DNA from: Kineosphaera limosa NBRC 100340
GTDB taxonomy: Bacteria; Actinomycetota; Actinomycetes; Actinomycetales; Dermatophilaceae
Assembly (NCBI RefSeq): GCF_000298215.1
Contig: NZ_BAHD01000007.1
Span: 1-64,000, forward strand
DNA length: 64,000 nucleotides
Direction of reading: 5' to 3'
Part shown: one piece after another, positions 6,383 through 64,000 of the stretch
Layout: the number at the start of each line of letters is the position of its first letter
Position numbering within the stretch: the first letter of the stretch is position 1
Position numbers and translations under genes: made by a program
The notes under the pieces: model-generated
What the model was told of the DNA's origin: nothing
The model's database searches: none
What the model saw: the letters and a program-made list of their open reading frames with translations, nothing else

Positions 6383-6409
6383 GCAATCGTCGCGAAACGT
6401 CGTCGCAAC
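6383..6409 (+). promoter_or_regulatory. Possible GlnR half-site series upstream of urease
   Basis: Three blocks GCAAT, GAAAC and GCAAC are spaced exactly 11 bp apart (starts 6383, 6394, 6405), 22-49 bp before the ureAB start. Actinobacterial GlnR binds paired half-sites of the type GTNAC/GAAAC repeating with 6-bp spacers. The match is partial. Two further GTTAC words lie at 6276 and 6303. It is proposed only because urease is a known nitrogen-regulated target in relatives. Confidence 0.25.
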
Positions 6410-48358: not shown

Positions 48359-48514
48359 GTGACCGACAACCTCTTTCTCCACCAACTCCACCAACTCCAC
48401 CAGCTCGACCAGAGCGCCGCCGCCTGGGGCGTGCCAATGCCGCTCAGCGCCGCTGGCGCCGCCCCGGTCCGCCGCGCCGCCGAGCCCGCGAACCGATCGG
48501 GGCACCGGCCATGA
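48359..48514 (+). CDS. Possible 51-residue protein coupled to comM
   Basis: A GTG-initiated frame encodes MTDNLFLHQL followed by further HQL units, then an Ala/Pro/Arg-rich tail ending GHRP. Its stop overlaps the comM ATG in an ATGA. Four 9-bp repeats (CTCCACCAA type, 48377-48412) encode the HQL units. No convincing ribosome binding site is visible, so it may be only leader sequence. Confidence 0.3.
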   Translation: MTDNLFLHQLHQLHQLDQSAAAWGVPMPLSAAGAAPVRRAAEPANRSGHRP

Positions 48515-49440
48515 CGATGGGGTTGACACGCTGTGTCGCGCTCGACGGCATCGCGGGAGCGGTCGTCGACGTCGAGGCCGACATCGTCAAGGGGCTGCCG
48601 GCATTCGCGATCTCCGGGCTGCCCGATGCAGCGTGCCGACAGAGCGCCGACCGGGTCAAGGCGGCCGCCGCCAACCTCGGGCGCTCGCTGGCGCAGGACC
48701 GGATCACCGTCAACCTCTCCCCGGCGTGGCTGCCGAAGGTCGGCTCGACCTTCGACCTGGGCATCGCGGTCGCGGTGCTCGCCGCGACGGGAGCGCTGCA
48801 GCAGCGGTATATCGCCGACGTCGTGCACATCGGTGAGGTGGGCCTCGACGGCACGATCCGGCCGGTGCGCGGCGTGCTGCCGCTGGTCCTGGCCGCGGTG
48901 CAGGCGGGGCATCGGGAGGTCGTGGTGCCCGCCGCCAATGCCGCGGAGGCGGCGCTCGTCTCCGGGGCACGAGTCGTGCCGGTGACGACCCTGGCCGAGG
49001 TGATCGCCCGCTACGAGGCGCTCGCTGACGGCCGCCCCGTCGCCGAGGTGTCGGTACCGGCAGGCGAGGCTTCTCGACCCGGGCCGATGCGGGACCTTGG
49101 TGAGATCGCTGGGCAGACGGAGGCCCGCTTCGCCCTCGAGGTTGCGGCCGCAGGCGGGCACCACCTCTTCCTGCTCGGGCCGCCGGGCGCCGGCAAGACG
49201 ATGCTCGCCGAGTGCATGCCTGGGGTGCTACCGCGGCTGGGTGAGCAGGACGCGATGCAGGTCACAGCGATCCACTCGCTGCTGGGGCAGTTGGAAGACG
49301 GCTCGATGATGCGGCGGGCGCCGTTCGTCGCGCCGCACCACGACGCCTCGTTGGCCGCGCTGGTCGGCGGCGGCAGCGCGGCGGTGCGCCCGGGGCTCAT
49401 CTCCCAGGCGCACGCGGGGGTGCTGTTTCTCGACGAGTCG
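48511..49440 (+). pseudogene. comM: ComM/YifB Mg-chelatase-like ATPase, truncated at a recombination junction
   Basis: The N-terminal Lon-like domain (TRCVALDGIAGAVVDVEADI, ITVNLSPAWLPKVGSTFDLG) and the start of the AAA domain (HLFLLGPPGAGKTMLAECMP) are intact. After the Walker B segment VLFLDES the sequence stops resembling ComM: the remaining 45 codons to a stop at 49575 are antisense to an AraC-type gene. Normal ComM is about 500 residues, so the sensor and lid parts are missing. ComM aids branch migration during natural transformation; this copy should be inactive. Expected downstream neighbours such as dprA are absent. Confidence 0.88.
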
Positions 49441-50082
49441 ACCGAGTGTCCAGTCCTCGGCCGGTGCATTGCGAAGCAGGTCGAGCGCTTCGCGAGCCTC
49501 GGCCCGCAGGGGCGCGAACCGCCGGTAACGTGGTGTGCCAGGACGACCCGTCCTCTTCTGGGTCGTGGTTCGTGATACGGGCGAGGTCTTCACATACGGG
49601 CTCACGACATCGAGCACGGCAAAGAGCAGGGCCTGCGTCCGGTAGAACCTCTTGGTGCACGGTCCGTCAACACTGAGCGCGACCAGCTCGTCCAGGAGTG
49701 GCGTGAACATCCGAGTGCGGTTCTCTCCGAGGCGGAGTATCTGGGCCGACTCGGAGTAGATCTCGTCGGCGAAGTCATGGGCATCGAGCCGGTCTGCAAG
49801 CAGCTCGGCATGCTGCCAGAAGACCTGGTCGACGACGTAGTCTCGGTCCAGGTAGAGCGTGGTGACGGTGACAAGATCTTCGGGTTCGCCACCACACAGG
49901 GTGTTGGCACCCAGGGCCACGACGTCACCGGCGCAGACGGGCTTCTCACCAAACTCGCTGAGCACGATCGCAGATCCTGCGCGGACGAAGATCAGCTTGA
50001 CGCAGTCATGCGCCACGGGCGCGATAGGCACACGGATGCTGCAAGTGCGAGCAATGATTGGTTGAAGGCGCGCCGAAGGCAT
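49429..50082 (-). pseudogene. AraC family regulator, truncated at its DNA-binding domain
   Basis: From ATG 50082 about 218 residues of a cupin-type ligand-binding domain can be read: DCVKLIFVRAGSAIVLSEFG, DVVALGANTLCGGEPEDLV, LYLDRDYVVDQVFWQHAELL, and then the usual linker LRAEAREALDLLRNAPAEDW. The AraC helix-turn-helix pair should follow WTLGRLV, but from there the frame runs antisense into comM. The pattern resembles AraC-like regulators found on actinobacterial mobile elements; this link is from memory and should be checked. It is not expected to bind DNA. Confidence 0.75.
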
Positions 50083-50686
50083 ACATGCCTGCTACGGCCG
50101 ACCCGCACCAGGCGTGGGCCGGGTCATGGCGCGCAGCCTCTCATTGCGGTCGCTGGTGGGGCGCCACGAGGTCTAGGAACCAGAGACGTCACGGGGCTGA
50201 CCCCCAGAGGGGGGGTCGGGCAGCCCTACCCCAGCGCGTCGCGGCGAGCAGCCCACTGGCCGACCGGTCGCGCCATGGTGAAGTCGGGGTGGTCATAGTC
50301 GGCGTTCTTGGTCCTCTCCTCCGGCAGCAATGGTGCTTGGATCCCCGCCCAAGGGCCTGCCACGGCTTCTGCCGCGTGTGTGGTCTCCCACCGGGCATCA
50401 CGGTAAAAAATGTAGCAGATAGTACAATTGACCGCCTGTGGCTGAGTTCGCGGTCGCCGCGTCGGTGTCGAGTCGCGGGCGAAGGGGGTGAGACGTGTCG
50501 TAGCTCCCGAGCGGGAGATGTCACCGTCATGCGCGGGAGACTTAGCGCACTATAGAACGAGTTCTACCTCAGTCTTGGACCTAACTAGGGCATCGCAGGC
50601 TGCGAGATTCCCAACCCATACTCACGCCATTGGTATCAAAGATCGTACTTGACGGTACATAAATGGCTCTGGCATCGTGATGTGCT
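50083..50686. other. 604-bp non-coding region upstream of the RraA-like operon
   Basis: No convincing gene on either strand. Notable parts are a GACCCCC/GGGGGTC inverted repeat at 50199-50217, an AT-rich stretch near 50402-50430 (TAAAAAATGTAGCAGATAGT), and a perfect 14-bp palindrome at 50553-50566. Base composition is clearly less GC-rich than the first 49 kb. A TTGACGGTAC near 50648 may belong to the promoter of the downstream operon. Confidence 0.6.
50553..50566. promoter_or_regulatory. Perfect palindrome TAGAAC-GA-GTTCTA, TetR-type operator
   Basis: Both 6-bp arms match perfectly around a 2-bp centre. It also fits the published consensus of the mycobacterial steroid regulator KstR (TNNAACNNGTTNNA), a TetR-family site. 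It lies 121 bp before the RraA-like gene of an operon that itself encodes a TetR regulator, the most likely binder. Confidence 0.5.
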
Positions 50687-51385
50687 GTGAGTGGAGATCC
50701 TCGTGTGGCCAACGGTTGGGGTGCCGAGCATCGGCGTGCCCAGGCCGAGCAGATCAGTTGTGCCGACGTGGTCGATGCGCTGGGTCGTCGTCACCGCCAC
50801 CGTGCGCACATCCTGGGGCTGGAGAGTCCCACCCCCGGCAGGGTCCTCTTCGGACCAGTCGTGACTATCGCCTTCTTCCCCAGTTGCGCTGCCAGCGTCG
50901 ACCCCGCTGTACACGATTTCCGATCGCTGATCCGTGAGGCGGTTGGCGACGACGCCGAGGGAAAGGTCCTCGTGCTCGCGACCAACGGCCATCCAGGCGT
51001 CTCGGTCGGTGGTGGAACGAAGCTTGGCCGCGTTCACCACTACGGGCTCGACGGGGTGCTGACAGATGGCCGGCTCCGGGACTACGCCGAGCTTCGAACG
51101 TACGGGTTCACCGCGTACTGCGCCGGGGAAGCGGTCGAGGCTGGCGGTGCGCTGATCACTCCACACCAGGCGAACGTTCCCGTGGTGCTGGATGGTGTCG
51201 GCATCATGCCGGGCGACTACGTTCTCGCCGACGGATCGGGGGCGGTCATCATCCCCGGCGCGGAGATCGACGAGGTCCTACTCGGTGCGACAGCGGTGAA
51301 ACAGGAGGACGCGCGCTTCCGTGAGCAAATCGCGCAGGAACGCGCCAGTGCCGGGGAGAGCGCCCGGGGAGAGCGAGAGCGATGA
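50687..51385 (+). CDS. RraA family protein (aldolase/RNase E regulator-like)
   Basis: 232 residues (GTG 50687; GTG 50705 possible). The family core is visible: ISCADVVDALGRRHRH, VTIAFFPSCAASVD, GGGTKLGRVHHYGLDGVLTD with GRLRDYAEL, and VVLDGVGIMPGDYVLADGSG. Members include 4-hydroxy-4-methyl-2-oxoglutarate/oxaloacetate aldolases and the RNase E inhibitor RraA. The Arg-Asp pair (RLRD) used for metal and substrate binding is present. The next gene starts inside its stop (ATGA), marking an operon. Confidence 0.85.
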   Translation: MSGDPRVANGWGAEHRRAQAEQISCADVVDALGRRHRHRAHILGLESPTPGRVLFGPVVTIAFFPSCAASVDPAVHDFRSLIREAVGDDAEGKVLVLATNGHPGVSVGGGTKLGRVHHYGLDGVLTDGRLRDYAELRTYGFTAYCAGEAVEAGGALITPHQANVPVVLDGVGIMPGDYVLADGSGAVIIPGAEIDEVLLGATAVKQEDARFREQIAQERASAGESARGERER

Positions 51386-52005
51386 CCGAGCCGGGACGCG
51401 ACGAGCGGACAGAACCATCACCAGACGCTGGAACGGGAGATAGCCCTGGCTCCCGCAGCGCTTCTCGACACCACGCCGAGCCGGAGGCGGGCGACCACTC
51501 CAACGACAGCGTTGGCCGCGAGATGTTCGCTTGCCCGCACTGCGGGCACCAACTCAGCATGTTCAGAGAAGCGCGGTCGAGCCCCGGAGACAAGGCCGCT
51601 GCCTGGGTGGCGAGCGTCGCGGGCTCATGGCCGTTCCTGCTAATCCTGGTGGTGGCGATTCTCGCGTGGTTTGTCGTGAACACTATCCTGCCGCTCTTTT
51701 ATCCCCACCCGACGGCCATGCTGGACTATCTAGGAACGGCTCTGGCGATCGTCGCGGCTCTGCAGGGACCGCTGATTCTGCTCACTCAGCGACGGGAGTC
51801 GGACCGGGACCGTGCGCGAGACATCGAGACGTTCCACATCTCTCAGAACACCGAAGCCGATCTGCACTCGATCAGTCATGCCATCAACTCGGTTCTTGAG
51901 CAGTGGGAACGCGACCGGTCGTCAGGTGCCGTTGACGTACCGGGAGGTGGCGGTACGGCTGAGAAACCGCGGACGGGAGCCACTCGATCGCAGGACTCAT
52001 CGTGA
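51382..52005 (+). CDS. DUF1003 family membrane protein with zinc-ribbon-like motif
   Basis: 207 residues. A polar N-terminus contains FACPHCGHQL, a single CxxC pair. Two membrane segments follow (about 82-102, FLLILVVAILAWFVVNTIL, and 115-135), with the DUF1003 pattern YLGTALAIVAALQGPLILLT and then QRRESDRDRARDIETFHIS. The family is widespread in bacteria and has no established function. It overlaps the RraA-like gene by 4 bp, and TetR follows 39 bp on. Confidence 0.82.
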   Translation: MTEPGRDERTEPSPDAGTGDSPGSRSASRHHAEPEAGDHSNDSVGREMFACPHCGHQLSMFREARSSPGDKAAAWVASVAGSWPFLLILVVAILAWFVVNTILPLFYPHPTAMLDYLGTALAIVAALQGPLILLTQRRESDRDRARDIETFHISQNTEADLHSISHAINSVLEQWERDRSSGAVDVPGGGGTAEKPRTGATRSQDSS

Positions 52006-52044
52006 CCTCCGAGGCTGGCGGGTTCAGTCCAGATCGGGAGCACG

Positions 52045-52668
52045 GTGAGTGAGAAGAAGCCGCGACGGCTGACCGCCAAGGGCGAGGCCACTCGCCTGCG
52101 TATCGTCGCGGCAGCCGCCGATCTCATGTACTCGCAGGGCGTCGAGGCCACCAGCGTTGACGATGTCATAGAGGCCAGTGGAACGGGCAAGTCTCAGGTT
52201 TACCACTACTTCTCGGACAAGACCGAGTTGGTTGAGGCAGTCGTGAGGGCCCAGATTGAGCGGGTGCTTGGCGAGCAGGCACCATTCCTCGACGACCTGC
52301 GCACGATGCGCGGCTTCGAGCGTTGGCGGGATGCGATCGTGGTAGGAGTGCGTGGTTGGCGAGGTGCTCACGGCTGTCCGATGGGGTCGCTGGCGAGCGA
52401 AATCGCTGGCCGGTCTGAGACTGCGCGTGAGAATCTCCAGCGAGGATTCAGCGTCTGGCAGCACTGGTTCCGTCTCGGACTGGAGCGCATGCAGGACTCA
52501 GGCGAGCTACGGCCGGACGCAGATGCTGAGGAACTCGCCGTCGGTCTGATGGCGGCTGTCCAAGGCGGGTACCTCCTCGTCAAGACCACACGGGACGAGC
52601 GCAGCATGGCAATCGCGCTCGACATGGCTCTCGACTCCATCCGCGTCGCGCTGAGCGCCGCAGAGTGA
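52045..52668 (+). CDS. TetR family transcriptional regulator
   Basis: 207 residues, GTG start. The DNA-binding domain is intact: RLRIVAAAADLMYSQGVEAT, then SVDDVIEASGTGKSQVYHYF followed by SDKTELVEAV. The ligand domain ends LAVGLMAAVQGGYLLVKTTRD. The protein is clearly similar to the frameshifted TetR at 60014-60656 (shared ELAVGLMAAVQGGYLL/ALATGLLAALQGGYLL, CPMGSLASEIA/CPLGALANEIA). It probably controls its own operon; the ligand is unknown. Confidence 0.92.
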   Translation: MSEKKPRRLTAKGEATRLRIVAAAADLMYSQGVEATSVDDVIEASGTGKSQVYHYFSDKTELVEAVVRAQIERVLGEQAPFLDDLRTMRGFERWRDAIVVGVRGWRGAHGCPMGSLASEIAGRSETARENLQRGFSVWQHWFRLGLERMQDSGELRPDADAEELAVGLMAAVQGGYLLVKTTRDERSMAIALDMALDSIRVALSAAE

Positions 52669-52685
52669 ACTGCGGAGGAGAGCAC

Positions 52686-53078
52686 ATGCCTTCTGAGGCA
52701 CGAGTCCCAGAGCCCGCGGACGATTCCACGAGCCATGCCGTGAGGAGGAGTTCTGCCCCGGCCTTTCACAGTTCGAGCTCTCTCCACTCGATGCCTCCCG
52801 AGCATGATGGTGCGAGTCAGGCCACGGCCAGCTTGCGGGCAATGGTCGACCGGGTTCCTGAAGGCTGGACCGTCGTCGCATACGAAGGTCGCTCATACGG
52901 ATTGACCCGGACCACGCGAGTGCAGGGCCAGAGCATCAGCATCTCGGCCGAAGAGCTAGGAGGCGAAGACCTGATCAGCGCCAACGTGTACCGCACTCGC
53001 AAAGCAGAGCACCTACGGCCCTGTGAGGTATCCGAAGCCAAGGTGCTGGCATTCCTGCGCGGGTGGACGCCCGCATGA
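52686..53078 (+). CDS. Hypothetical protein upstream of mshC
   Basis: 130 residues from ATG 52686, chosen because GGAGGAG lies just upstream. The first 50 residues are Ser/Pro-rich and look disordered. The rest looks like a small folded alpha/beta domain: [40 protein letters not shown] and [15 protein letters not shown] do not recognise the family with certainty. It lies between tetR and mshC in the same orientation, so it is probably co-transcribed. Confidence 0.65.
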
Positions 53079-53160
53079 CCCCTCGCGACACTCTGTCAGC
53101 AGGATCAGGAATCCACGCCGAATCCTCTGGTGTGGCTTCATCGACTACGAGGACCACGAC

Positions 53161-54399
53161 ATGTTGGCATGGCCCCGTTTAGAGATTCCACGCCTGGATG
53201 TGCACGGGCCCGCAGTCTCGGTCTATGACACTGAGAAGCGATCGTTGGTGACGTTGCGGCCGGACGACGCCGCGCGGATGTACGTCTGTGGTATCACACC
53301 GTACGACTCCACTCATCTCGGCCATGCGGCCACCTACGTCGGCTTCGATCTGCTTAACCGCGCCCTTCGAAACGCTGGGCGCGATGTCATCTATGTCCAG
53401 AACGTGACCGACGTCGATGACCCGCTGCTGGAACGCGCCCACGCGCGAGGCATTCCCTGGAGTGATCTCGCACAACGCGAGATCGAGCGATTCCGGCAGG
53501 ACATGACAGCCTTACGCGTGCTGCCACCCGCGCATTACATCGGGGTTGCCGAGACCGTCACCAAGATCATCTCTCGCATCGAGATGTTGAAAGAACGCGG
53601 CTCCATCTACCGAGTGGGGATCGACCTCTACTTCGAGGTGTCTGCCGACCCATCCTTCGGCCGTATATCGTCACTCGACCGCGACGTGATGCTGAAGGAC
53701 TTCGCCGAGCGTGGTGGTGACCCCGACCGGAAAGGCAAGCGCGATCCGCTCGACTGTCTGGTTTGGCGCGGCGAGCGGCCAGGGGAGCCGTTCTGGCCCA
53801 GTCCGTGGGGGCCGGGACGACCCGGATGGCACATCGGATGCACCACAATCGCCCAGGAATATCTGGGACCATCCTTCGACGTACAGGGTGGAGGACGAGA
53901 CCTGGCATTCCCGCACCACGAGATGTCCGCAGGACTCGGTCATGTCATTCATCCACAGCATCGGTTCGCGCAGACCTTCGTCCATGCCGGGATGGTTGCC
54001 TACGACGGCCAGAAGATGTCGAAGTCGCGCGGAAACCTGGTCTTCGTCTCCTCTCTGCGAAAGCAAGGAGTGGACCCTGTGGCCATCCGCCTCGCCCTCA
54101 TGCGGCACCACTACCGATCAAGCTGGCAGTGGACAGACGCCGAACTCCCTGCCGCACTCGTCACGTTGAAGCAGTGGCGGCGTGCCCTGGCGCTCGGTAG
54201 CGGGGCGCCGGCAGCACCGGTCGTGCAGGCCGTGCTATCGGCACTAGCCGCCGACCTGGACGCTCCGGCCGCGGTTACCATTGTGCAGGCGTGGGTTGAC
54301 GCCTCGCTTGGTACCGACACTGTGGCGGACAAGCGAGACAGCTCTGCCTCTATGACGGTTCGACGTCTGGCGGACGCTTCACTCGGTCTCCTGCTCTGA
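53161..54399 (+). CDS. mshC: L-cysteine:1D-myo-inosityl 2-amino-2-deoxy-glucopyranoside ligase MshC
   Basis: 412 residues from ATG 53161 ([17 protein letters not shown]), preceded by GAGGA; the frame is open further up but the N-terminus is typical here. MshC is a class I cysteinyl-tRNA synthetase relative without the tRNA-binding part. [19 protein letters not shown] gives the zinc Cys and the HLGH motif, [14 protein letters not shown] follows, with GWHIGC, FPHHEMS and the KMSKS loop QKMSKSRGN. It joins cysteine to glucosaminyl-inositol in mycothiol synthesis. Its usual place is a housekeeping locus, so its presence in this accessory block may mean a second copy. Confidence 0.93.
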
Positions 54400-54446
54400 T
54401 CGGATCACCCCGGACTGGGAATATTCGGCCATCGTGCACGAGCTGG

Positions 54447-55844
54447 CTACGCCTGCGTCCAGGTGGTGCCGGAGGTGTGGTCCTGGATGGCGATCCCAGC
54501 ACTAGCCAGTTCGTTCCGGATGCGGTCGGCTGTGGAGAAGTCTCCTGCGTCTCGCGCATGAGAGCGATTCGCGAGCAGGACCTCGACGAGGGTAGAGATC
54601 GTGCTGCTCTGCACGTCGGCTCGCGGGGCGGTCGTGAAGCCGCCGGGCTCGGCTCCTAACACTTCGGTCATCGCGAGCACCGATTCGTACGCGGACATGA
54701 CGGCAGCTGCATCGCCGTTATCCAGAGCGATGTTGCCCGCGCGCACGTGGTCGTGTAATACCGCGAGCGCCGCTGGAACATTCAGATCGTCGTCGAGCGC
54801 GGCCGCAAAGGCAATGGGCGGCTTCGGGACGTCGGATGCTGTGTTCGCGAGCTGTGTTCGTGCGCGGCGCTGGAAGGTCGCGATTCTCGTGACCGCAGCT
54901 TCGGTGTGCGCGAGGGCTTCCTGGTGATAGTCCAAGGCGCTGCGGTAGTGCGCGCTGAGCAGGTAGTAACGCAGGGTCGCCGGGCCGACGCGGCGGAGGA
55001 GTTCGTCGGCATACAGAGAGTTGTCTAGCGACTTGGCCATCTTCTGACCGCCGACGGTGACGAGGCCGTTGTGCACCCAGTACTTGGCGAACTCCTCGCC
55101 TGCTGCGGTGGACTGGGCAAGCTCGTTCTCATGGTGCGGGAACCGCAGGTCGAGGCCACCTCCGTGGATGTCGAATGCACGGCCGAGGTAGTGCCTGGAC
55201 ATCGCCGAGCACTGTATGTGCCATCCCGGCCTGCCGGTTCCCCATGGTGAGCGCCAACGAGCGGATGCTGGGTCGCTGGGCTTGGCTCCCTTCCAAAGCG
55301 CGAAGTCGCGGGGATCGGTCTTTGCCCCGCCAGGCCCTTCGTCAGGGTCCACCACGGCGTCGGGGGTCTGCCGGGTGAGCGTGCCGTATGCCTGCCAGCT
55401 GCTGACATCGAAGTAGACGTCGCCGGAGCCGTCGCCGGCGACGTAGGCGTGTCCGCGGCGAAGGAGTCGTTCGATCAGGGTCAGTGCTTGCGGGATGTGA
55501 CCGGAGGTTCGGGGTTCATGGGTTGGCGGGAGAACACCCAACGCGGTGTACGAGCGCGCGAACTCCGTCTCGACACGGTAGGCGCGTGCCCACCATGGTT
55601 CAGTCTCGGTTGCTAGGTCCAGAACCTTGTCGTCGACGTCGGTGACGTTGCGAACGAGGGTGACCGCGTAGCCGCGGTGGGTGAGCCAGCGTCGCCAGAG
55701 ATCGTAGACGAGGGCGCTACGAAGGTGCCCGATGTGCGGCGCGGACTGCACGGTCGGCCCGCACACATAGATGGAGACTCGTCCTGGGGTCAGCGGGACG
55801 AAGCTACGTAGCTCCCGGACAGCACTGTCGTAGATGCGAAGCAT
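54447..55844 (-). CDS. cysS: Cysteinyl-tRNA synthetase with KMAKS motif
   Basis: 465 residues. Catalytic features: [20 protein letters not shown] (zinc Cys and HIGH), [20 protein letters not shown], the zinc pair FPHHENE, and [12 protein letters not shown], where the usual KMSKS is KMAKS. The C-terminal helical tRNA-binding region is present ([37 protein letters not shown]). It converges with mshC, a paralogue using the same cysteinyl-adenylate chemistry. It is the last gene of a minus-strand operon with redox genes. It may be a second, stress-related CysRS; the chromosomal copy is not in view. Confidence 0.93.
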
Positions 55845-55896
55845 CAGTCCGCAGCCTCCTGCCTGGTAGAAGCCGCGATCGCGACGAGCGGACCAG

Positions 55897-56154
55897 TCAT
55901 AGGCGGGGCACCCTGATGTAGTCCAGGCCCGAGAGGTTCACTAGCGTCTCTCGGAAACCGCGGACGATGACGCCCAGGACCGCCTGACAATGGCCGCATC
56001 GCATGACTGCACCCATGGCCGTGATGAAGACATGCGCGCAGGCGAGGTTGAAAGAGCTGCCGCAGCCCCGGCACCTGCCGACCGTCACAGTGATCTCGAT
56101 ACCGAGAGCAGTCGCGAACGCACCCGCGAGGGCGTTTCCGTCGACGTGAGTCAT
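55897..56154 (-). CDS. DUF6510 family small zinc-ribbon-like protein
   Basis: 85 residues from ATG 56154, overlapping the upstream reductase by 4 bp. It begins MTHVDGNALAGAFATALGIE and has two CxxC pairs, GRCRGCGSSF and MRCGHCQAVL, typical of a zinc ribbon, then LVNLSGLDYIRVPRL. As I recall, such proteins sit beside sulfite-oxidase-like and flavin reductase genes in actinobacteria. The function is unknown; a scaffold or electron-transfer partner role is a guess. Confidence 0.8.
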   Translation of the reverse strand: MTHVDGNALAGAFATALGIEITVTVGRCRGCGSSFNLACAHVFITAMGAVMRCGHCQAVLGVIVRGFRETLVNLSGLDYIRVPRL

Positions 56155-56885
56155 CGACTGCCTCCAAATCGTTCCGTACGAATCTGCGTGGGGTCGTGGC
56201 CCAGTTCGACAAGCCAACCGGCGACGGCCTCAACGAACGATGTCGGTCCGCAGACGAAGATGCGTGGCGACAGCGACGCGGGAAAGGTCGACGCTGCGAG
56301 CGCCTCACGCGTCAGCCGTCCAGGTGGCCGGCCCGCTCCAGGTGCTGACTCGCGCGTGTAGACAATCTCGACGACGGTTCGTGAGAGCTCTGCCAGTTCG
56401 TCAGCGAAGAACTCATCGCGCGGACTGCGGACCGAGTACAGCAGCCGAAACTCAGCACCTTTCAACTCACGTTCACGCGCCGAGGCCATCGAGAACAAGG
56501 GCACAACCCCTGAGCCGCCCGCGATGAGCTGAACCGGTGACTGCTCGGGCTCAGCGGGGATCCAGACGAAGAAGCGTCCGAGCGGTCCTTGTACCTCGAC
56601 TTCTTCACCTTCCGCGAGCTGACGCACAAGAAACGGCGACACCTCGCCCCCGGGTAGCTCCTGGACCACCAGCACGACCCGTGTCGACTCACCCGAAGAC
56701 GCCAGCGAGTAAGACCGGGACGCCTGGTACCCGCCCGGTGCCGTGAGCCGGATGTCGAGATGAGCTCCGGCGTCGTTTCCAGGCCAGGTCGGCACAGCCA
56801 GTTCAAGACGCACGGCCGAGCCGGTCTCAAACTGCCGACTGATCACCCGCCCGAGGTGCCACCGGACTCGGTTAGAGGTGATCAC
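56151..56885 (-). CDS. Ferredoxin-NADP reductase-like flavoprotein
   Basis: 244 residues from GTG 56885, which sits in a GTGA overlap with the upstream molybdoenzyme gene; the longer open frame is antisense noise. FAD domain with SRSYSLASSGEST (RxYS motif) and GGEVSPFLVRQLAEGEEVEV, then an NAD(P) domain with LIAGGSGVVPLFSM and FVCGPTSFVEAVAGWL. It lacks a [2Fe-2S] domain. Most likely it passes NAD(P)H electrons to the molybdopterin protein encoded immediately before it. Confidence 0.87.
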   Translation of the reverse strand: MITSNRVRWHLGRVISRQFETGSAVRLELAVPTWPGNDAGAHLDIRLTAPGGYQASRSYSLASSGESTRVVLVVQELPGGEVSPFLVRQLAEGEEVEVQGPLGRFFVWIPAEPEQSPVQLIAGGSGVVPLFSMASARERELKGAEFRLLYSVRSPRDEFFADELAELSRTVVEIVYTRESAPGAGRPPGRLTREALAASTFPASLSPRIFVCGPTSFVEAVAGWLVELGHDPTQIRTERFGGSR

Positions 56886-57475
56886 CAGTAGCGCTCCTCC
56901 CGCCACGGGTCGCCACGGAGGTGATAGCCGTTCTGTTCCCAGAACCCCGGGTCGTCCGAGGGCATCATCTCCATCCCGCGAACCCACTTCGCGCTCTTCC
57001 AGAAGTAGAGGTGAGGCACGAGAAGTCGAGCAGGACCTCCGTGCTCGGGCCTGAGAGGCTCGCCCTCCGCTTCGGTGGCTACCCATGCCTGACCATCGAG
57101 CAGATCCTCGAGAGGGAGGTTGGTGGTGTATCCGCCGTAACTACGGACCATCACATAGTCGTAACTGGTCTCGACATCCTCGAACAGCCGGTCTATGGGC
57201 ACGCCACGCCAAGCCATGTCCAGCTTCGACCAGTGGGTGACGCAGTGGATATCGGTGACGATGTCTTCGACGCCCACCTCCTGAAGCTCACTCCAGTTCC
57301 ATCGGTGCGCGACCTGGTCCTCGGTCGTGATCGTGAAGCTCCATCGGCTCTCGTCGACATTGGGCGTGGGTCCCGTCGAGAGCACCGGCCAGTCGTAGAC
57401 GTGGGTCTGCCCAGGAGGCAGTCGCGGGTCACTGGAGCCACCTCGTCCTCCGAAACCGCTGTTGATCACTGTCAT
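56882..57475 (-). CDS. Sulfite-oxidase-like molybdopterin oxidoreductase (MsrP/YedY-like fold, cytosolic)
   Basis: 197 residues. The Moco-binding domain is recognised by the molybdenum-ligating Cys in DIHCVTHWSKLDMAWRGVPI, then VMVRSYGGYTTNLPLEDLL, LRPEHGGPARLLVPHLYFWK and SAKWVRGMEMM. There is no Tat signal, no haem domain and no dimerisation domain, so it is a minimal cytosolic member. E. coli MsrP of this fold reduces methionine sulfoxide. Here a dedicated flavin reductase (4-bp overlap) and nearby msrA/msrB suggest a reductive role, but substrate is unproven. Confidence 0.9.
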   Translation of the reverse strand: MTVINSGFGGRGGSSDPRLPPGQTHVYDWPVLSTGPTPNVDESRWSFTITTEDQVAHRWNWSELQEVGVEDIVTDIHCVTHWSKLDMAWRGVPIDRLFEDVETSYDYVMVRSYGGYTTNLPLEDLLDGQAWVATEAEGEPLRPEHGGPARLLVPHLYFWKSAKWVRGMEMMPSDDPGFWEQNGYHLRGDPWREERYW

Positions 57476-57500
57476 GGCTACCCCTTCCTCCGGGAACTCT

Positions 57501-58064
57501 CTACTGTGGCCCGCGCGAACGGTCGGCGTCGCTCACGAGGGAGCGATGTTGGGTAGGTGTTCCGGACGACGCCAGGCTCGGAGTGGCACCCTGAGCCAGC
57601 TTTAGGCGGGTCCACACGTTCATGTTGATGACGACCGCGGCGATCTCGGCGACTTCGCGCTCCGTGAAGTGGAGCCGCAGTTCTTTGTGCAGGGCCGGAA
57701 TCTCCTCGTGACGGAACAAGGTGAGACCTTCGCAGTAGGCGAGCGCGACTCTCTGCCCGGGCGAGTACATGGCGCTCTCGCGCCACGACGCCAGGTGTGC
57801 GGTCTGCTCGGACCGGATCCCGATCCTGGCCGCCACCTCGGCGTGGAGAATCAGGCAGTAGGAGCAGGGGTTGAGCTGTGCGACGCGCAGACGAAGGAGT
57901 TGTAGCAGGACACGGTCCGCCGACAGCTCTGCGGCGTACCCGAACTGTGCGGCCATGTCCTTGGCAAGTTCGTGGAACGGGGTGATGTCTGGGTCGAAGC
58001 GAGTGTTCTCGAACCGGAGACTCCCGAGTACCGGTTTCGGGTCTTCGGTGCCGGGCTCAGGCAT
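57501..58064 (-). CDS. AhpD-like carboxymuconolactone decarboxylase family protein
   Basis: 187 residues. The CxxC redox pair lies in QLNPCSYCLILHAEVAARIG with the downstream His, the pattern of AhpD-type alkylhydroperoxidases. LASWRESAMYSPGQRVALAY and FTEREVAEIAAVVINMNVW complete the fold. Such proteins reduce peroxides or act as thiol adaptors. It overlaps the upstream GNAT gene by 8 bp and precedes the molybdoenzyme by 25 bp. The C-terminal 25 residues are Ser/Thr-rich and variable. Confidence 0.9.
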   Translation of the reverse strand: MPEPGTEDPKPVLGSLRFENTRFDPDITPFHELAKDMAAQFGYAAELSADRVLLQLLRLRVAQLNPCSYCLILHAEVAARIGIRSEQTAHLASWRESAMYSPGQRVALAYCEGLTLFRHEEIPALHKELRLHFTEREVAEIAAVVINMNVWTRLKLAQGATPSLASSGTPTQHRSLVSDADRSRGPQ

Positions 58065-58509
58065 CGTCGCGACCGTCCCGTCCAGTGCCCGGAATGTCCA
58101 CCATGGCGGCGTACTCGGGGTTGCGCTCGATGAAGGACCGGAACACGGGGCACCTCACGGTCGCGCTCTTGCCCTCCGCGCGGATGCTGTCCAGCACCCT
58201 GCGGGTGAGTTCGGTCGCCAAGCCCTGTCCTCGGTAGTCCGGCAGGATCGAGGTCGCCAACAGCGTCACTCTGCCGTTCTTGTCCGCGAACGGGACGGCT
58301 CCGAATTCGACGCCATCCTTGGTTGCGACGAAGGCGCTGGCCTGAGCATCCACTGCGATCGAGAACGACGTGCCGTCCTCGAGGTTCGTCGACCTGGCAT
58401 CGGGCTCGTCATGCCGTGCGCCTGTGTCCGTGAAGGCGCCACCAGCCTGATTCTGGTCCTGTGGGTCCATACTTCCTGTCACCTGACCCAGGTCCTCGGG
58501 TTCGTTCAT
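58057..58509 (-). CDS. GNAT family N-acetyltransferase, YjdJ-like small type
   Basis: 150 residues. A polar N-terminus of about 45 residues is followed by a compact acetyltransferase: SAFVATKDGVEFGAVPFADK, then ILPDYRGQGLATELTRRVLD (acetyl-CoA loop RGQGLA) and VRCPVFRSFIERNPEYAAMV. It is the first gene of the minus-strand redox operon that runs to cysS and diverges from msrB. The substrate is unknown. Confidence 0.85.
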   Translation of the reverse strand: MNEPEDLGQVTGSMDPQDQNQAGGAFTDTGARHDEPDARSTNLEDGTSFSIAVDAQASAFVATKDGVEFGAVPFADKNGRVTLLATSILPDYRGQGLATELTRRVLDSIRAEGKSATVRCPVFRSFIERNPEYAAMVDIPGTGRDGRDDA

Positions 58510-58679
58510 GCCGTTTCCTCTCCAACCTCTGTCGCCGGACCTGCATCGCCGAGGAGTCTTGGTTTGACCCTAGCAGCCGCGTGACATCGGTCTTGTCGGT
58601 CGTCGCGAGACCAGCCGCCCCGCCTCGGGGGCGACGCATCGTCTGGCCTCGACTCTAACGCAGGACATGTGGAATAGTT

Positions 58680-58693
58680 GGACCGCCCGGTCC
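58680..58693. promoter_or_regulatory. Perfect palindrome GGACCG-CC-CGGTCC in the msrB/GNAT divergent promoter
   Basis: Two perfect 6-bp arms around CC, located 52 bp before msrB and about 170 bp before the divergent GNAT-AhpD-molybdoenzyme operon. The form is typical of TetR-family operators. Two TetR genes are in the island, one of them frameshifted. Shared control of both operons is plausible. Confidence 0.45.
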
Positions 58694-58744
58694 GTTACAG
58701 CACGTGATGGCGCGGCCGCGCGTCACCTGCTAGGAGGAGCCAAA

Positions 58745-59224
58745 GTGACCACCAACGACTACCGCAGGACCCCTGAGTTGCTCAGCCGCCTGAGCGACGA
58801 GCAGCATCGGGTGACGCAGCAGGACGGCACAGAGCCGGCCTATCGGAACGAGTACTGGGACAATCACGAGCCTGGCATCTACGTCGACATCGTCTCGGGT
58901 CAGCCGCTGTTCTCGTCCACCGACAAGTACGACAGCGGCACGGGATGGCCGAGCTTCACGGCGCCCATCGCCGCCGACGCTGTCACGACCAAGGCGGACC
59001 GGACGCACGGCATGATCCGCACCGAGGTGCGCTCGGCGGGCGCCGACAGCCATCTCGGGCACCTATTCCACGACGGACCCGCCGCCGCCGGGGGCCAGAG
59101 GTACTGCATGAACTCGGCCGCGATGCGCTTCGTTCCTGCCTCCAAGCTCGTCGAGGAGGGCTACGGCCAGTTCAGTGCACTGTTCGACACCGACCAGGAC
59201 TCTACGAAGGGAGCCACCGCATGA
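58745..59224 (+). CDS. msrB: Peptide-methionine (R)-S-oxide reductase MsrB
   Basis: 159 residues from GTG 58745, preceded by TAGGAGGAG; the open frame further upstream lacks support. It has [51 protein letters not shown] and the catalytic Cys in [13 protein letters not shown]. The two CxxC zinc pairs of many MsrBs are absent, giving a zinc-free form with no obvious resolving Cys, so reduction may rely on thioredoxin or mycothiol. It overlaps msrA by 4 bp. Confidence 0.95.
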
Positions 59225-59781
59225 CCAGCGGGACCAACGACAGCGGAGCGATCGCGCAGGTCTCGGGAGCGGAGACAGCCGTTCTGGCTGGCGGGTGCTT
59301 CTGGGGCATGCAGGACCTAATCCGTCGCCAGCCGGGCATCTTAGGAACCCGCGTCGGGTACACGGGTGGGCAGAACGAACACCCGACGTACCGCGACCAC
59401 CCAGGCCATGCGGAGGCGATCGAGGTCGTCTTCGACCCTTCGAAGACGAGCTATCGGGACATCCTGGCGCTGTTCTTCCAGATCCACGATCCCTCGACGC
59501 TGAACCGTCAGGGGAACGACCGAGGGACGAGTTACCGCTCCGCGATCTTCCCGGTGACGCCGGAGCAGGAGCGGATCGCCCGCGACACGATCGCGGATGT
59601 GAACGCATCGGGTCTGTGGCCGGGTAAGGCAGTTACCAGTATCGAGCCGGTCGGTCCGTTCTGGGAGGCGGAGCCCGAGCACCAGGACTACCTGGAGAAG
59701 TATCCGAACGGCTACACGTGCCACTTCCCCCGCGACGGCTGGGTACTACCGGAGCGGAGTTCGCCCAGCGTGGCAACATAG
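59221..59781 (+). CDS. msrA: Peptide-methionine (S)-S-oxide reductase MsrA
   Basis: 186 residues, ATG in the ATGA overlap with msrB. Catalytic Cys in [14 protein letters not shown], then [36 protein letters not shown] and [12 protein letters not shown]. The C-terminus [18 protein letters not shown] supplies a second Cys likely to act as resolving residue. Together MsrA and MsrB repair both sulfoxide isomers of methionine. The unit is transcribed away from the GNAT-cysS operon. Confidence 0.96.
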
Positions 59782-60013
59782 CAAGGTTCTGAGGTTTGGG
59801 CCCGGGCATCTGGGGTCGAGATCCGCCTCGCCGCCCCCGAAGGGTCCGGTGACGGTTGACGACTGCACAGCCATGCCCAACCGCGAGGGCCCCGATCCTG
59901 AAGTACGACATGAGGCTCTCGTCGGCTGCTCGCAAGGGTGGTCCACGCCGATGGTCGTTGGCACCTGAGTGCGGGCGAGAGACCGCCCAACCCGAGGCGA
60001 TTAGCCTTGGGGT

Positions 60014-60656
60014 ATGACTGACAGCGCCAGCGGCCCCCGCCCGCGCCGCTTGACGGCGCGCGGCGCCGCAACGAAGGCACGGATTATCGAGGCAGCCGAT
60101 CAGTTGATGTACGAGCGCGGCGTTGCCTCGACGACTCTGGCCGACGTCCGTGCATCGAGTGGGACGTCGAAGTCGCAAGCTCTATCAGCACTTCGCTGAG
60201 AAGGACGCACTGGTGAAAGAAGTCATTGAGGCACGTGCAGAGGCACTGCTGTCACAGCAGCGCCGTCGCCTTGCGAGGGTCGAGTCGCTGCGCGGACTCG
60301 AACTCTGGCGCGATGAGCTAGTTGAACGCAATGCGCTCCGAAACGGCGCCTATGGGTGCCCACTAGGAGCGCTGGCGAATGAGATCGCTGATCATGACGA
60401 AGACACACGGAAAGTCATTGCTGCTCATTTTGACGCCTGGCTCCAACTCTTGACTGATGCGATTGAAGAGCTGAAGAAGCGCGGCGTGCTAATCCCGAGC
60501 GCCGAGGCGCACGCGTTGGCCACTGGGCTGTTGGCTGCTCTCCAAGGAGGTTACCTACTCGCTAAGACGGCCCGAGACGTCCGTCCCATGCGGGTGGTCC
60601 TCGACATGGCCATCGCACAGGTGCGGGCGTACTCGACGGAGAGCAACTCTGCGTGA
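60014..60656 (+). pseudogene. TetR family regulator with a +1 frameshift
   Basis: The DNA-binding half (RRLTARGAATKARIIEAADQ, VASTTLADVRASSGTSKSQ) is in one frame and the rest (LYQHFAEKDALVKEVIEARA, GCPLGALANEIADHDEDTRK, LATGLLAALQGGYLLAKTAR) is in another. Removing one A at 60177/60178 restores SKSQLYQHFAEKD, the normal TetR recognition-helix region. As written, translation from 60014 stops after 61 residues. It is related to the intact TetR at 52045. It could be a real mutation or a sequencing error. Thioredoxin lies downstream in the same direction. Confidence 0.85.
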
Positions 60657-60889
60657 CTGCGCCCCACCCCGCTCGGCCAGCGCAGCGACCCTGAGATTCG
60701 CCCGGCTCCTAGAATCTGTGGACTTGAGGGTCCAGAACACGTTCAAGTCGAACGCGTAGGGAAGGCGCTGCGCTCTCCCGGCAGCCCTTTGGCTTAAGGC
60801 CCATGGCGCTTGCGCCGCTCGCGAAGATCGGCAATCATGAGAGTGGACCCTGGGGTCCATTGTTAGCTCACCGAGCGATTGGACGGAAG

Positions 60890-61258
60890 ATGGCAACGGT
60901 TGATGTGACAGACAAGAACTTCCGCGAAGTGACCGAGCGGGAAGGGATCGTCATCCTTGACTTCTGGGCTACCTGGTGCGGTGCATGCAAGGCGTTTGCG
61001 CCGGTGTACGAGGCAGCATCTGAGAGCCACATGGATATCCTCTTTGGCAAGGTCGACACGGAGGCGGCGCAGCAGTTGTCTGAGTCACTCGCAATCCGCG
61101 CGCTACCAACAATCGCGGTCTACCGCGACTCGATCAGGGTGTTCTTCCAGGCCGGTGCGCTCCCGAGGCCCGCGCTTGACGACCTGATCACACAGGTACG
61201 GGCGCTCGACATGGCGCAAGTGCGAGCCGAGATCGAGAGCCATGCCCACGTCCACTAG
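60890..61258 (+). CDS. Thioredoxin-like protein with WCGAC active site
   Basis: 122 residues from ATG 60890 (MATVDVTDKNFREVTEREGI). The fold is standard: VILDFWATWCGACKAFAPVY with CGAC in place of the usual CGPC, FGKVDTEAAQQLSESLAIRA, the cis-Pro in LPTIAVYRDSIRV, and LDDLITQVRALD. The Ala after Gly should shift redox potential. It is a candidate electron donor for MsrA/MsrB or AhpD. A 232-bp gap separates it from the frameshifted TetR; nothing else was seen there. Confidence 0.92.
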   Translation: MATVDVTDKNFREVTEREGIVILDFWATWCGACKAFAPVYEAASESHMDILFGKVDTEAAQQLSESLAIRALPTIAVYRDSIRVFFQAGALPRPALDDLITQVRALDMAQVRAEIESHAHVH

Positions 61259-61336
61259 TAGTTGCCGTGGTCAGGAGGACGATGTCCCGGACATGCGTCG
61301 GGCTGCGTGAGGCGTCTCCCTGATTGGATCGGGTCG

Positions 61337-62208
61337 TCAGGAGTTGATGTTGTCGAGTTCGGCGAGGTCCTGTTCTGTGAGGGACAAACTGGCGCCGGTG
61401 ATGTTCTCGCGCAGGTGCGCGACCTTCGAGGTCCCAGGGATGAGGAGGATGTTCTCCGAGCGCTGCAGCAGCCAAGCAAGGGCGACAGCCATCTGGGTTG
61501 TCTCCAGACGGGTTGCCACGGCGGTGAGCGCATCGGCCTGGAGCGGGGAGAACCCACCGAGGGGGAAGAAGGGGACGTAGGCGATGTTGTCGGCGGCGAG
61601 GCTGTCGATCAGATGGTCGTCCCACCGGTTGGCGAGGTTGTACATGTTCTGCACGCAGACGATCGGTGTCACCGCGCGGGCTTCGGCAACCTGCTCAGCG
61701 GTGACGTTACTGACTCCGAGCTGGCCGATCAATTCCTCTTGCTGGAGGCCGGCGAGGGTCTCCATGGCTTCGGCGATCGAGCCTGGCTGGGGGCCGTTGG
61801 CATCTCCCATGCGCATGTTCACCAGGTCGAGGCGCTCGGCCCCCAGGGATTCAAGGTTGTCCCGGAACTGCTGGCGCAGCTCCTCGGGAGTGCGCGCGGT
61901 TGGCCAGCCGCCCTCGGCGTCGCGGTTCGCGCCGACCTTGGTGGCGATCAGTACCGACTCCGGATACGGATGCAGCGCCTCACGAATCAACTCGTTGGCG
62001 ACCCGCGGGCCGTAGGCGTCGCTGGTGTCGATGTGCGTGACGCCCTGCGCGACCGCCTCGCGTAGCACCGCGATCGCGCCGTCATGGTCAGCCGGTGGCC
62101 CCATCACCCAGGGTCCCGCGAGCTGCATGGCCCCGTAGCCGAAGCGGGTGACACTCCGTTCGCCAAGGTTCCAGGTGCCGCCGGGAGCGTGATTGACGCT
62201 GTGGTCAT
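61337..62208 (-). pseudogene. Aldo/keto reductase, probable frameshift near its start
   Basis: The body is intact: VTRFGYGAMQLAGPWVMGPP, the catalytic Tyr and Asp in THIDTSDAYGPRVANELI, TKVGANRDAEGG, QLGVSNVTAEQVAEA and LLIPGTSKVAHLREN. In its frame no ATG or GTG exists upstream. The best start, ATG 62208 with AAGGAAGG nine bases before it, reads MTTASIT and is one base out of frame; adding one base near 62190 would join it to APGGTWNLGERSV. TTG 62278 is a poorer in-frame alternative. It reduces carbonyls with NADPH by family. It diverges from hxlR. Confidence 0.8.
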
Positions 62209-62294
62209 CGTGTCGTGCCTTCCTTGTTCGGATCAGGGGTGGTGCTCCGCACCGTCTTGTATCAGTGTTGGAGAGCAACTCTCTTCTGGGAAGT

Positions 62295-62312
62295 ACGCAC
62301 TTCGGAGTGCGT
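62295..62312. promoter_or_regulatory. HxlR operator candidate: ACGCACT-TCGG-AGTGCGT
   Basis: A perfect inverted repeat with 7-bp arms and a 4-bp centre in the 126-bp gap between the divergent aldo/keto reductase and hxlR genes, 23 bp before hxlR. A second, shorter inverted repeat GAGAG-CAA-CTCTC lies at 62271-62283. HxlR-family regulators commonly repress a divergent oxidoreductase gene from such a site. Confidence 0.6.
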
Positions 62313-62334
62313 TACCTCCTGTGGAAAGGCGGAC

Positions 62335-62763
62335 ATGATGGCGACGACGACCGCGGCCGAGAAGCGCGAGCGGGCCAAGAGCGCGTACAACGCGTTCCTC
62401 GCGGTGTGCCCGAGCCGTCAGCTCCTCGACCGGCTCGCCGACAAATGGGTCGTGCTCATCCTCTGTGCTCTCGGCGGCGACGGCACCGGCAGCGTCGGCG
62501 AGCCGGCGTCTATGCGGTACTCCGAACTCTCCCGCCTCATCGCCGGTGTCAGCCAGAAGATGCTCACCCAAACCCTTCGATCCCTGGAACGAGACGGCCT
62601 CATCACCCGCACGGTCACCCCGACTGTCCCCGCCACCGTCGACTACGCGCTCACAGACCTCGGTCTCTCGCTCCACCGGACCACCCGGCAGCTCAGGGTC
62701 TGGGCGCAAGACCACATGGACACTGTCCAGACCCATCGCGACCACTACGACACCCAGCACTGA
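62335..62763 (+). CDS. HxlR family winged-helix regulator
   Basis: 142 residues from ATG 62335, preceded by GGAAAGGCGG. The family core is clear: [40 protein letters not shown], then [20 protein letters not shown] and [12 protein letters not shown]. The single Cys before the DNA-binding helices is conserved in redox- or electrophile-sensing members such as YodB and HypR. It likely senses reactive electrophiles through that Cys and controls the adjacent aldo/keto reductase. Confidence 0.92.
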
Positions 62764-62821
62764 CACCGTGCGACATCCGGGTACGCTGACCGAGCGCTTC
62801 GCTCCCAGGCTTGACATTGAG

Positions 62822-63058
62822 GCAGGGGAAGCCACCGCAGAGGATGTCCATCGGTTCGACGGCGCTCCAGTCGATGCTGGTGACGTCACCGAGGTTCAGC
62901 GCGTCGGGCCAGTGGCGGGCGACGGGTTCGTTGATCTCGAAGAACCAGATCGTCTCGGCGTCGAAGACATACTTGACAGCCAGATCGAGTCCGCCGTATC
63001 GAGACAACAGCGACCCGACCCGCAGACGACGCTCACCAGACGGGGTGTGGTCGTGCAT
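62822..63058 (-). pseudogene. DNA (cytosine-5) methyltransferase, N-terminal remnant
   Basis: About 79 residues from ATG 63058 match phage-type C5 methyltransferases: RVGSLLSRYGGLDLAVKYVF (SAM motif I), IWFFEINEPVARHWPDALNL, then VEPMDILCGGFPC with the catalytic Pro-Cys. Right after the catalytic Cys the expected Gln-Asp continuation is replaced by LNVKPGSE and unrelated sequence. Target-recognition and C-terminal motifs are missing, so it is non-functional. The flanking 62764-62821 and 63059-63350 hold no recognisable gene. It is a trace of a prophage or other mobile element. Confidence 0.72.
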
Positions 63059-63359
63059 GAAGGCTCCGGCAGTTCGGTGACCCCGAACCCGAGCCCCTCA
63101 CGGCGCCCTGTCGCCGGGCTGATCACCTGCCAGGTGCACGATCCCGCCTGGTCGCCCGCGGAACCCCGCCGATAACCCGACGGAGCGCGTCCGCTCTCGA
63201 CCGGCAGCCCGACGCCGATCCGTCTCCCCGCTCAGCCCTCTCTGAGCTGCCACGCGTCTTGCAGGTCGAGGGAGGGTGCCCCCTTCGTCGTGCGCCTCGG
63301 ACCCCCGCCTCGTCGCCGACTACGGCTCGGAGCTGTCGGTGACGGATAACGTGAGTACC

Positions 63360-64000
63360 ATGCTCAACTTGCTGGTTGACACCTCGACGTGGCTAGACCT
63401 GTCCAAACGACGTGACGGTCAGCGATGGATCGTTGCCCTCCGCGTCCTTGTTCATCAGGGTGAGGTCGAGTTGATCGTGCCGTCGCTCGTCATCGAGGAG
63501 TATGAGCGCAATCGAGAGCGTGTCGAGGCGTCGATGACCGCTAGTGTCGCTCAGCGCTTCAAACTGATCCGACAGGATCTTGATGACTTCGGCGGCACCG
63601 ACACCGAGCAGGCGCTCAGGACCGTTGAAGACCTTGCACGCCACGCACCACTGATTGGCGCGATGACGACCCGCAACTTCGATGAAGTCCTCGATCTGCT
63701 CCGTGGTGGCCGCGCAGTGGAGGCCACGGACTCGGAACGCCACGCGGCGGTCGAACGAGGTCTCTCGAAGCGAGCACCTTTTCACCGCTCGCGCAACAGT
63801 GTCGCCGACGCGTTGCTGCTCGAGTTGTACGCAACCGCGATTGCAACTGTCGATCTTGCGCAACACCCCCATGCGTTCGTTACGTCCAACAGCGAGGACT
63901 TCTCATTACCCAATGGGGACAAGCGGCTGCCGCATCCAGACATCTCGGCAGCCTTCGCATCGGAGCATTCCACTTACGCACTGGGAGTCGACGGATTGAA
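63360..64000 (+). CDS. PIN-like domain protein, 3' truncated by window edge
   Basis: An open frame from ATG 63360 (or GTG 63351) runs uninterrupted to the window end, at least 213 residues. The N-terminal Asp in LLVDTSTWLDLSK, the acidic helix VPSLVIEEYERNRERV, the Asp in NSVADALLLELYA and the segment AFVTSNSEDFSLPNGDK form the four-acidic PIN-nuclease pattern, close to the DUF4935-type proteins. Such proteins cleave RNA and occur in toxin or defence contexts. No antitoxin gene is visible upstream. The C-terminus is unknown. Confidence 0.75.
   Translation, partial: MLNLLVDTSTWLDLSKRRDGQRWIVALRVLVHQGEVELIVPSLVIEEYERNRERVEASMTASVAQRFKLIRQDLDDFGGTDTEQALRTVEDLARHAPLIGAMTTRNFDEVLDLLRGGRAVEATDSERHAAVERGLSKRAPFHRSRNSVADALLLELYATAIATVDLAQHPHAFVTSNSEDFSLPNGDKRLPHPDISAAFASEHSTYALGVDGL

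Follow-up and report, generated by a model that had tools for sequence, protein, structure and literature searches.

A comM-inserted ICE in Kineosphaera limosa that appears to have lost its integrase arm at the recombination core

Large islands that interrupt comM, as the element described here does, are familiar from the AbaR islands of Acinetobacter; unlike ours, these are transposon-borne and are not known to have serine-integrase attachment sites. Serine integrases that target the gene for a magnesium chelatase/ATP-dependent protease form a major published class, and the elements concerned (PMC10083194) share the kind of target gene and the class of enzyme with ours, but our copy is without an integrase and a left arm. 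The sr1WO prophages of Wolbachia (PMC9203015) have a serine recombinase and an insertion in a magnesium chelatase gene, i.e., the same kind of gene as in our case, but they are prophages of endosymbionts and not ICEs. No integrase-less comM ICE with a joint such as that described below was returned by a literature search that mostly stopped short of full texts. The comM insertion is of a known kind, and the unusual part, seen in one assembly, is the apparent loss of the integrase arm exactly at the core.

The interrupted comM gene and its insert

The locus lies on a contig of 85,083 bp (C160, which contains no N) in a draft genome of 4.85 Mb and 166 contigs; the window, i.e., the whole stretch of 64,000 nucleotides that was analyzed, is C160:1-64000. 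The comM 5' part (48511..49437, plus strand; Pfam Mg_chelatase and ChlI in its 310 amino acids) comprises 309 codons through the Walker B residues LDE, and in its frame, which starts at 48511, homology to ComM ends directly behind VLFLDE, where the earlier note had placed the loss. The same note took comM to have been stripped of its 3' half, but this is refuted: the 3' part is found 33 kb downstream on the same contig and strand (C160:82676-83296, outside the window), and the joining of 48511-49428 to 82676 onward restores a single uninterrupted ComM (VLFLDEAPEFRRTVLQALRQPLESG...) in frame. The ComM 3' half of a genome of the same genus (G001) matches C160:82691-83293 on the same strand with 73% identity. 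Presence of the 3' half on the same contig rules out its deletion, and dprA, which the earlier note had also listed as missing, was likewise located beyond the window on this contig (C160:83293; Pfam DNA_processg_A). The start of dprA (C160:83296-83533, equivalent to L016:15296-15533) carries a 15-bp unit repeated ∼16 times in frame, giving SGNGP repeats at the protein N terminus.

The insert in comM is 33,247 bp long and has CTCGACGAG at both ends as a 9-bp repeat (left copy, 49429..49437; right copy, C160:82676-82684), which represents an attachment-site remnant. The insertion point of our element falls at the comM codons for Walker B and is marked by a short core repeat. The suggestion that a core block meets a less GC-rich accessory region here agrees with the G+C contents, which are 71.8% to the left of the join and 64.5% within the element; to the right of the element the content is 72.6%. 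The part of the remaining element that lies in the window (49438..64000) is its left part, and the element extends past the window to C160:82684. When the stretch 49438-64000 was used in a plasmid search, no record among the matches listed (40 records) covered >9% of the query.

Redox and regulatory cargo genes lie between araC and the relaxase gene. In Pfam searches, the cargo block (50687..62763) encodes RraA-like, DUF1003, two TetR-type, DUF6510, FAD/NAD oxidoreductase, molybdopterin oxidoreductase, CMD, GNAT, MsrB, MsrA, thioredoxin, aldo/keto reductase, and HxlR proteins and two CysS-like synthetases, one of which lacks the DALR and C-terminal domains. The gene for the other of the two TetR-type regulators, the second one, seems to be divided between two frames (60014-60199 and 60123-60656), the N-terminal part being recognized by eye in the first ORF and the second matching only TetR C-terminal Pfam models. 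A short ORF (62693..63058, minus strand) matches just the N-terminal part of a C-5 cytosine DNA methylase in Pfam, and the DNA of 62821-63141 is found again next to the relaxase gene of an Actinotalea genome (G176). It is followed by the gene for a PIN-domain protein (63276..64000, plus strand), whose ORF ends outside the window at C160:64355. A TrwC relaxase gene is present in the element (C160:66637-70284). A PADLOC scan of ten proteins from C160:64484-82152 gave matches for six at an E value of 1e-4 (ThsB-like TIR, PDC-S28, PD-Lambda-3_B, PDC-S19, PDC-M36A, and RmrT) and none for four; the PDC names are taken by us to denote candidate systems. An inserted segment at C160:78114-79382 encodes an rve-domain (IS3-like) transposase and has an apparent 3-bp target repeat, AAC, and the gene that it splits in two is a single 514-amino-acid ORF in the Knoellia element described below.

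Related elements and their integrase

The right 3.3 kb of the insert is 97.3% identical, up to the core, to the right end of a comM ICE of Knoellia remsis (G290, contig NZ_PVTI01000002.1). Knoellia is placed in Intrasporangiaceae by NCBI, and this genome is among the family-level relatives. Beyond the core, comM of the two genomes shares a single 67-bp nucleotide match at an E value of 1e-5 and is ∼54% identical as protein, and nucleotide identity that stops at the core is the mark left by a transfer with its end there. The right attachment arm, AGGTGTACTTTCCA, adjoins the core in our element and is common to the elements of K. remsis, Actinotalea (G176), and a third genome (G075); an exact search for the right-arm pattern among 394 genomes of the class matched our genome alone. 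The relaxase region is ∼88% identical to that of K. remsis. By its content, including a TrwC-type relaxase homologous to ours, the K. remsis element is an ICE. It has the same comM insertion point and a homologous araC but, unlike ours, retains an integrase (563 amino acids, at the left end), both attachment arms, and an intact araC, and it also encodes a TraG/TraD-type coupling protein, an M23 peptidase, ParB, and ArdC. Pfam matches were obtained for 4 of 10 tested proteins of its left arm, with no other mating-pair proteins named. The araC homologue encodes 304 amino acids with HTH_18 and HTH_AraC domains (the first from residue 207) and lies 20 kb inside the element.

The elements of K. remsis, Actinotalea, and G075 share a design in which the left core and an arm, TGGAAAGTGCACCT, are followed at once by a 563-amino-acid ORF; the right arm is the inverted partner of this left arm. 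The three copies of the ORF are 84 to 87% identical, and the K. remsis copy, which was the one tested, has the Resolvase, Recombinase, and Zn-ribbon domains of a large serine integrase. When the three integrases were used as queries (two short peptide patterns) against one genome per species, 24 loci were recovered, of which 17 have the comM 5' half directly upstream. The query genomes account for three of the latter (L042, L051, and L060), leaving 14 further loci. The comM alignment ends at residues 309 to 315 in 15 of the 17 (at 340 and 390 in L047 and L053), the integrase match is partial in two loci (L061 and L064), and an arm of the form TGGAAAG..CACC follows GA[CT]GAG in 16 (all except L059). 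The loci come from records named Knoellia, Actinotalea, Metallococcus, Arthrobacter, Brevibacterium, Leucobacter, Microbacterium, and Lacisediminihabitans and from several MAGs (one labelled Acidobacteria). Among the loci not in comM, two (L043 and L046) occupy another site, two (L048 and L049) are at contig ends where the visible stub is not comM, and the remainder are two fragments (L062 and L063) and one match of 23% identity in a Pseudobutyrivibrio MAG (L065), which is no close relative. Of 396 genomes of the order, three have a full-length integrase, in comM in every case, and a fourth (G254) has a fragment (E value of 1e-60). From these positions, the 563-amino-acid integrase family is one that prefers comM. 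In L042 to L064 and in K. remsis the integrase ORF begins within or just after the left arm, downstream of and codirectional with the comM 5' half; on this ORF position, integrase expression after integration is predicted to depend, possibly, on comM transcription.

In our element the left attachment arm (TGGAAAG..CACCT) is absent from beside the core, no integrase is found beside the left core among the element's picked ORFs, and of the coupling-protein and other transfer genes of the K. remsis arm none is matched, the sole match to that arm being araC. A close copy of the comM integrase was sought in the rest of the assembly without success; the integrase-like stretches matched there have identities of 28% (residues 66 to 295), 36% (residues 127 to 213), and 28% (on contig C149). 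This search can miss weak relatives (the recombinases of contigs C89 and C149 were not listed at first), but a copy as close as those recovered from other genomes should not escape it. Other ICE pieces do occur in the assembly. C89 has a counterpart of the K. remsis conjugation module (∼70 to 80% nucleotide identity) beside its own, different serine integrase, with non-ICE ORFs beyond that integrase, and it ends in an IS-like ORF (recognized by eye) beside ardC, ∼1 kb short of the place of araC in Knoellia. C148 has part of a coupling-protein gene beside another serine integrase, and C149 has another relaxase gene, frame-broken near its 3' end, and a serine recombinase identified by similarity only. 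On sequence comparison, several related ICE pieces are present in the genome, each at most a candidate for the lost arm. C89 was rejected as the missing left arm given its different integrase, the other ORFs beyond it, and the second relaxase gene on C149.

The comM/araC joint and the origin of the left end

The earlier note had comM and an AraC-type gene meeting at one breakpoint, and this was borne out at 49429-49437, where the two frames run on opposite strands. The AraC frame (minus strand, from 50082) departs from AraC homology within WTLGRLVE and continues open into comM antisense, to 49228. As the note had proposed, the regulator is a remnant without its helix-turn-helix domain (49429..50082, minus strand): its 215 amino acids have no Pfam match, and its DNA matches the full-length Knoellia homologue at ∼73 to 74%. 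The AraC N-terminal part gave one match at an E value of 1e-15 in a genome-wide search. For the missing C-terminal part, which the note had suggested looking for, the best match in the genome stretches examined had an E value of 0.037 and lay at the joint itself.

The extent of the overlap, put at ∼12 bases by the note, holds in part: up to 12 bp fits both sides, but the certain overlap is just 3 bp. The joint of 12 bp (CTCGACGAGTCG, 49429..49440) fits both the AraC frame and comM followed by a canonical attL, as in the copies from Actinotalea, Brevibacterium HMSC07C04, and Metallococcus, and the left arm of several related elements begins with the TCG that follows CTCGACGAG here. CTCGACGAG translates as LDE in comM and as LVE in the AraC frame, in which homologues have LAE (G006), LAA (G412), or LAV (K. 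remsis). Homology with araC can be followed with confidence as far as the L of LVE, which leaves 3 bp (GAG in plus-strand orientation) in common with comM. Homology of araC through the whole 9 bp is plausible from this alignment, but the V and E could be comM derived, and the original overlap may have been <12 bp. The Knoellia araC lacks the 9-bp core, and the core match is therefore either specific to the araC of this lineage or shorter than 9 bp. Arm symmetry and the attL variants suggest that the crossover dinucleotide is the GA of GAG.

We regard it as highly probable that an ICE was inserted site-specifically in comM and that its left part was later lost at the core/araC joint. A large serine integrase would have inserted the ICE into the Walker B codons of comM, and the left part (attL arm, integrase, and conjugation module; ∼20 kb in the Knoellia relative) would then have been lost when the comM core became joined to the araC of the element itself at a short stretch that matches it. 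The 33 kb left over has the canonical right arm, several defense-like genes, and a TrwC-type relaxase but neither an integrase nor a normal left site. The integrase-mediated insertion is supported by the comparisons above, and the order of events, as well as an ancestor carrying the same integrase, is what we infer from them. What the note missed is that the island derives from a serine-integrase ICE of the comM-inserting family, so its right end was made by site-specific integration, and its left end appears to have been remade. Lacking both an integrase and a left attachment site, the element should not be able to excise, with comM locked in its broken state, and it is probably stranded there. 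A simple transposon was rejected as the inserted element, since the ends are not inverted repeats by eye and the repeat coincides with the serine-integrase core. Completion of araC by the right end in a circular form was also rejected, the frame across the joined ends having no helix-turn-helix-like sequence by eye.

The choice of agent for the loss of the left arm, the integrase or an ordinary deletion, is near even. Short-homology or illegitimate deletion without the integrase, for which 3 to 12 bp in common suffice by themselves and no special site is needed, may well be the cause, with a chance a little under one-half, and it is consistent with the retained araC arm being unlike an attachment arm. 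It has to explain a breakpoint exactly on the core, for which a random start in a 20-kb arm has a probability of ∼1/1,000 by rough estimate. That one breakpoint sits on the recombinase core speaks for the integrase, which, through a look-alike site in araC, may have trapped the ICE by excising its own gene together with the conjugation module; we advance this tentatively, as a serious reading that still falls below an even chance. A second copy would integrate at the araC site, and the new attR would then recombine with the comM attL in an excision step. Integration and excision are both normal reactions of this integrase class, and the exact half-sites observed would result, with the crossover dinucleotide alone needing to be shared. 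The araC side bears no resemblance to the element's own (P') arm, 17% of windows scoring as high, and a weak one to the comM-side (B') arm, ranking in the top 0.75% of the 1,466 windows that follow a GAG and in the top 1.3% of all windows in a post hoc test with eight comM sequences (2.9% and 3.5%, respectively, when just two training sites were used). The certain 3-bp overlap bears on both agents, and it therefore leaves their relative standing unchanged.

The joint itself rests on one assembly, and the note had offered for it either the end of an island or an assembly chimera. The former stands, this end being an atypical joint where the two sides have a short sequence in common. The latter, a fusion of comM and araC by the assembler, is unsupported because both comM halves flank one insert in frame and the other end, with its canonical right arm, is an independently recognizable attachment site. 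A draft of 166 contigs with other related ICE pieces (C89, C148, and C149), one of which carries a conjugation module and stops close to the place of araC, invites such an explanation, but the features on which C89 was rejected count against it, as do the failure to find a close copy of the comM integrase in the assembly and the gap-free contig. An overlap of 12 bp is also too short for usual assembly k-mers, and we consider a chimera very improbable. Integration into comM of an integrase-less minicircle (attP × araC site), with integrase supplied in trans, would make the crippled form itself mobile. It fits the order of half-sites (comM arm, core, and araC on the left; element arm, core, and comM on the right) and the retention of the relaxase, but the joint is confined to our genome among 186 of the family (≤3 mismatches allowed) and has no exact match in viral contigs, and this reading is unlikely.

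With loss of the left part from an ICE already in comM as the preferred account, what looked like a suspicious gene fusion becomes a readable history, in which an ICE family has entered several actinobacterial genera via one comM site and one copy appears to have been caught after loss of its own integrase at the recombination core. If the integrase was the agent, the decay of such ICEs into fixed, defense-rich islands may be partly site specific, and self-trapping would be a site-specific way for a mobile ICE to end as a fixed defense island. If the integrase was not responsible, the locus is an ordinary decayed island.

Other insertions in comM

In a search of the 396 genomes of the order, at least 386 had a comM match, and 32 (31 plus G014) were examined more closely; those left out of the closer look include the two-hit genomes G082, G123, G137, G150, G164, G192, and G216 and some with single weak matches. 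The gene is split near residue 310 in at least 8 of the 396 genomes, with left pieces ending at residues 308 to 319 and right pieces starting at residues 292 to 308. The split gene lies on a single contig in our genome, K. remsis, G352, G362, G404, and G154 (in G154 the last part of comM being on another contig) and across two contigs each in Actinotalea (G176) and G075. The insert of G352 carries a different large serine recombinase; by eye, that of G404 looks to be of the tyrosine type, and those of G154 and G362 look phage-like.

A second recurrent insertion point occurs near residues 77 to 85, after TTCGACCTGTCAA, in G014 (L017), G026 (L018), G237 (L035), and G378 (L033). The inserts at this point are ∼9 to 12 kb in the first three genomes, and G378 shows the 5' piece alone. 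In G334 (L034), on a single contig, just the comM 5' part (residues 1 to 317) was found, and ∼4 kb past it, at position 6405, lies an attachment-arm-like sequence, GGTGTACTTTCCATTCC, which may mark another decayed member of the family.
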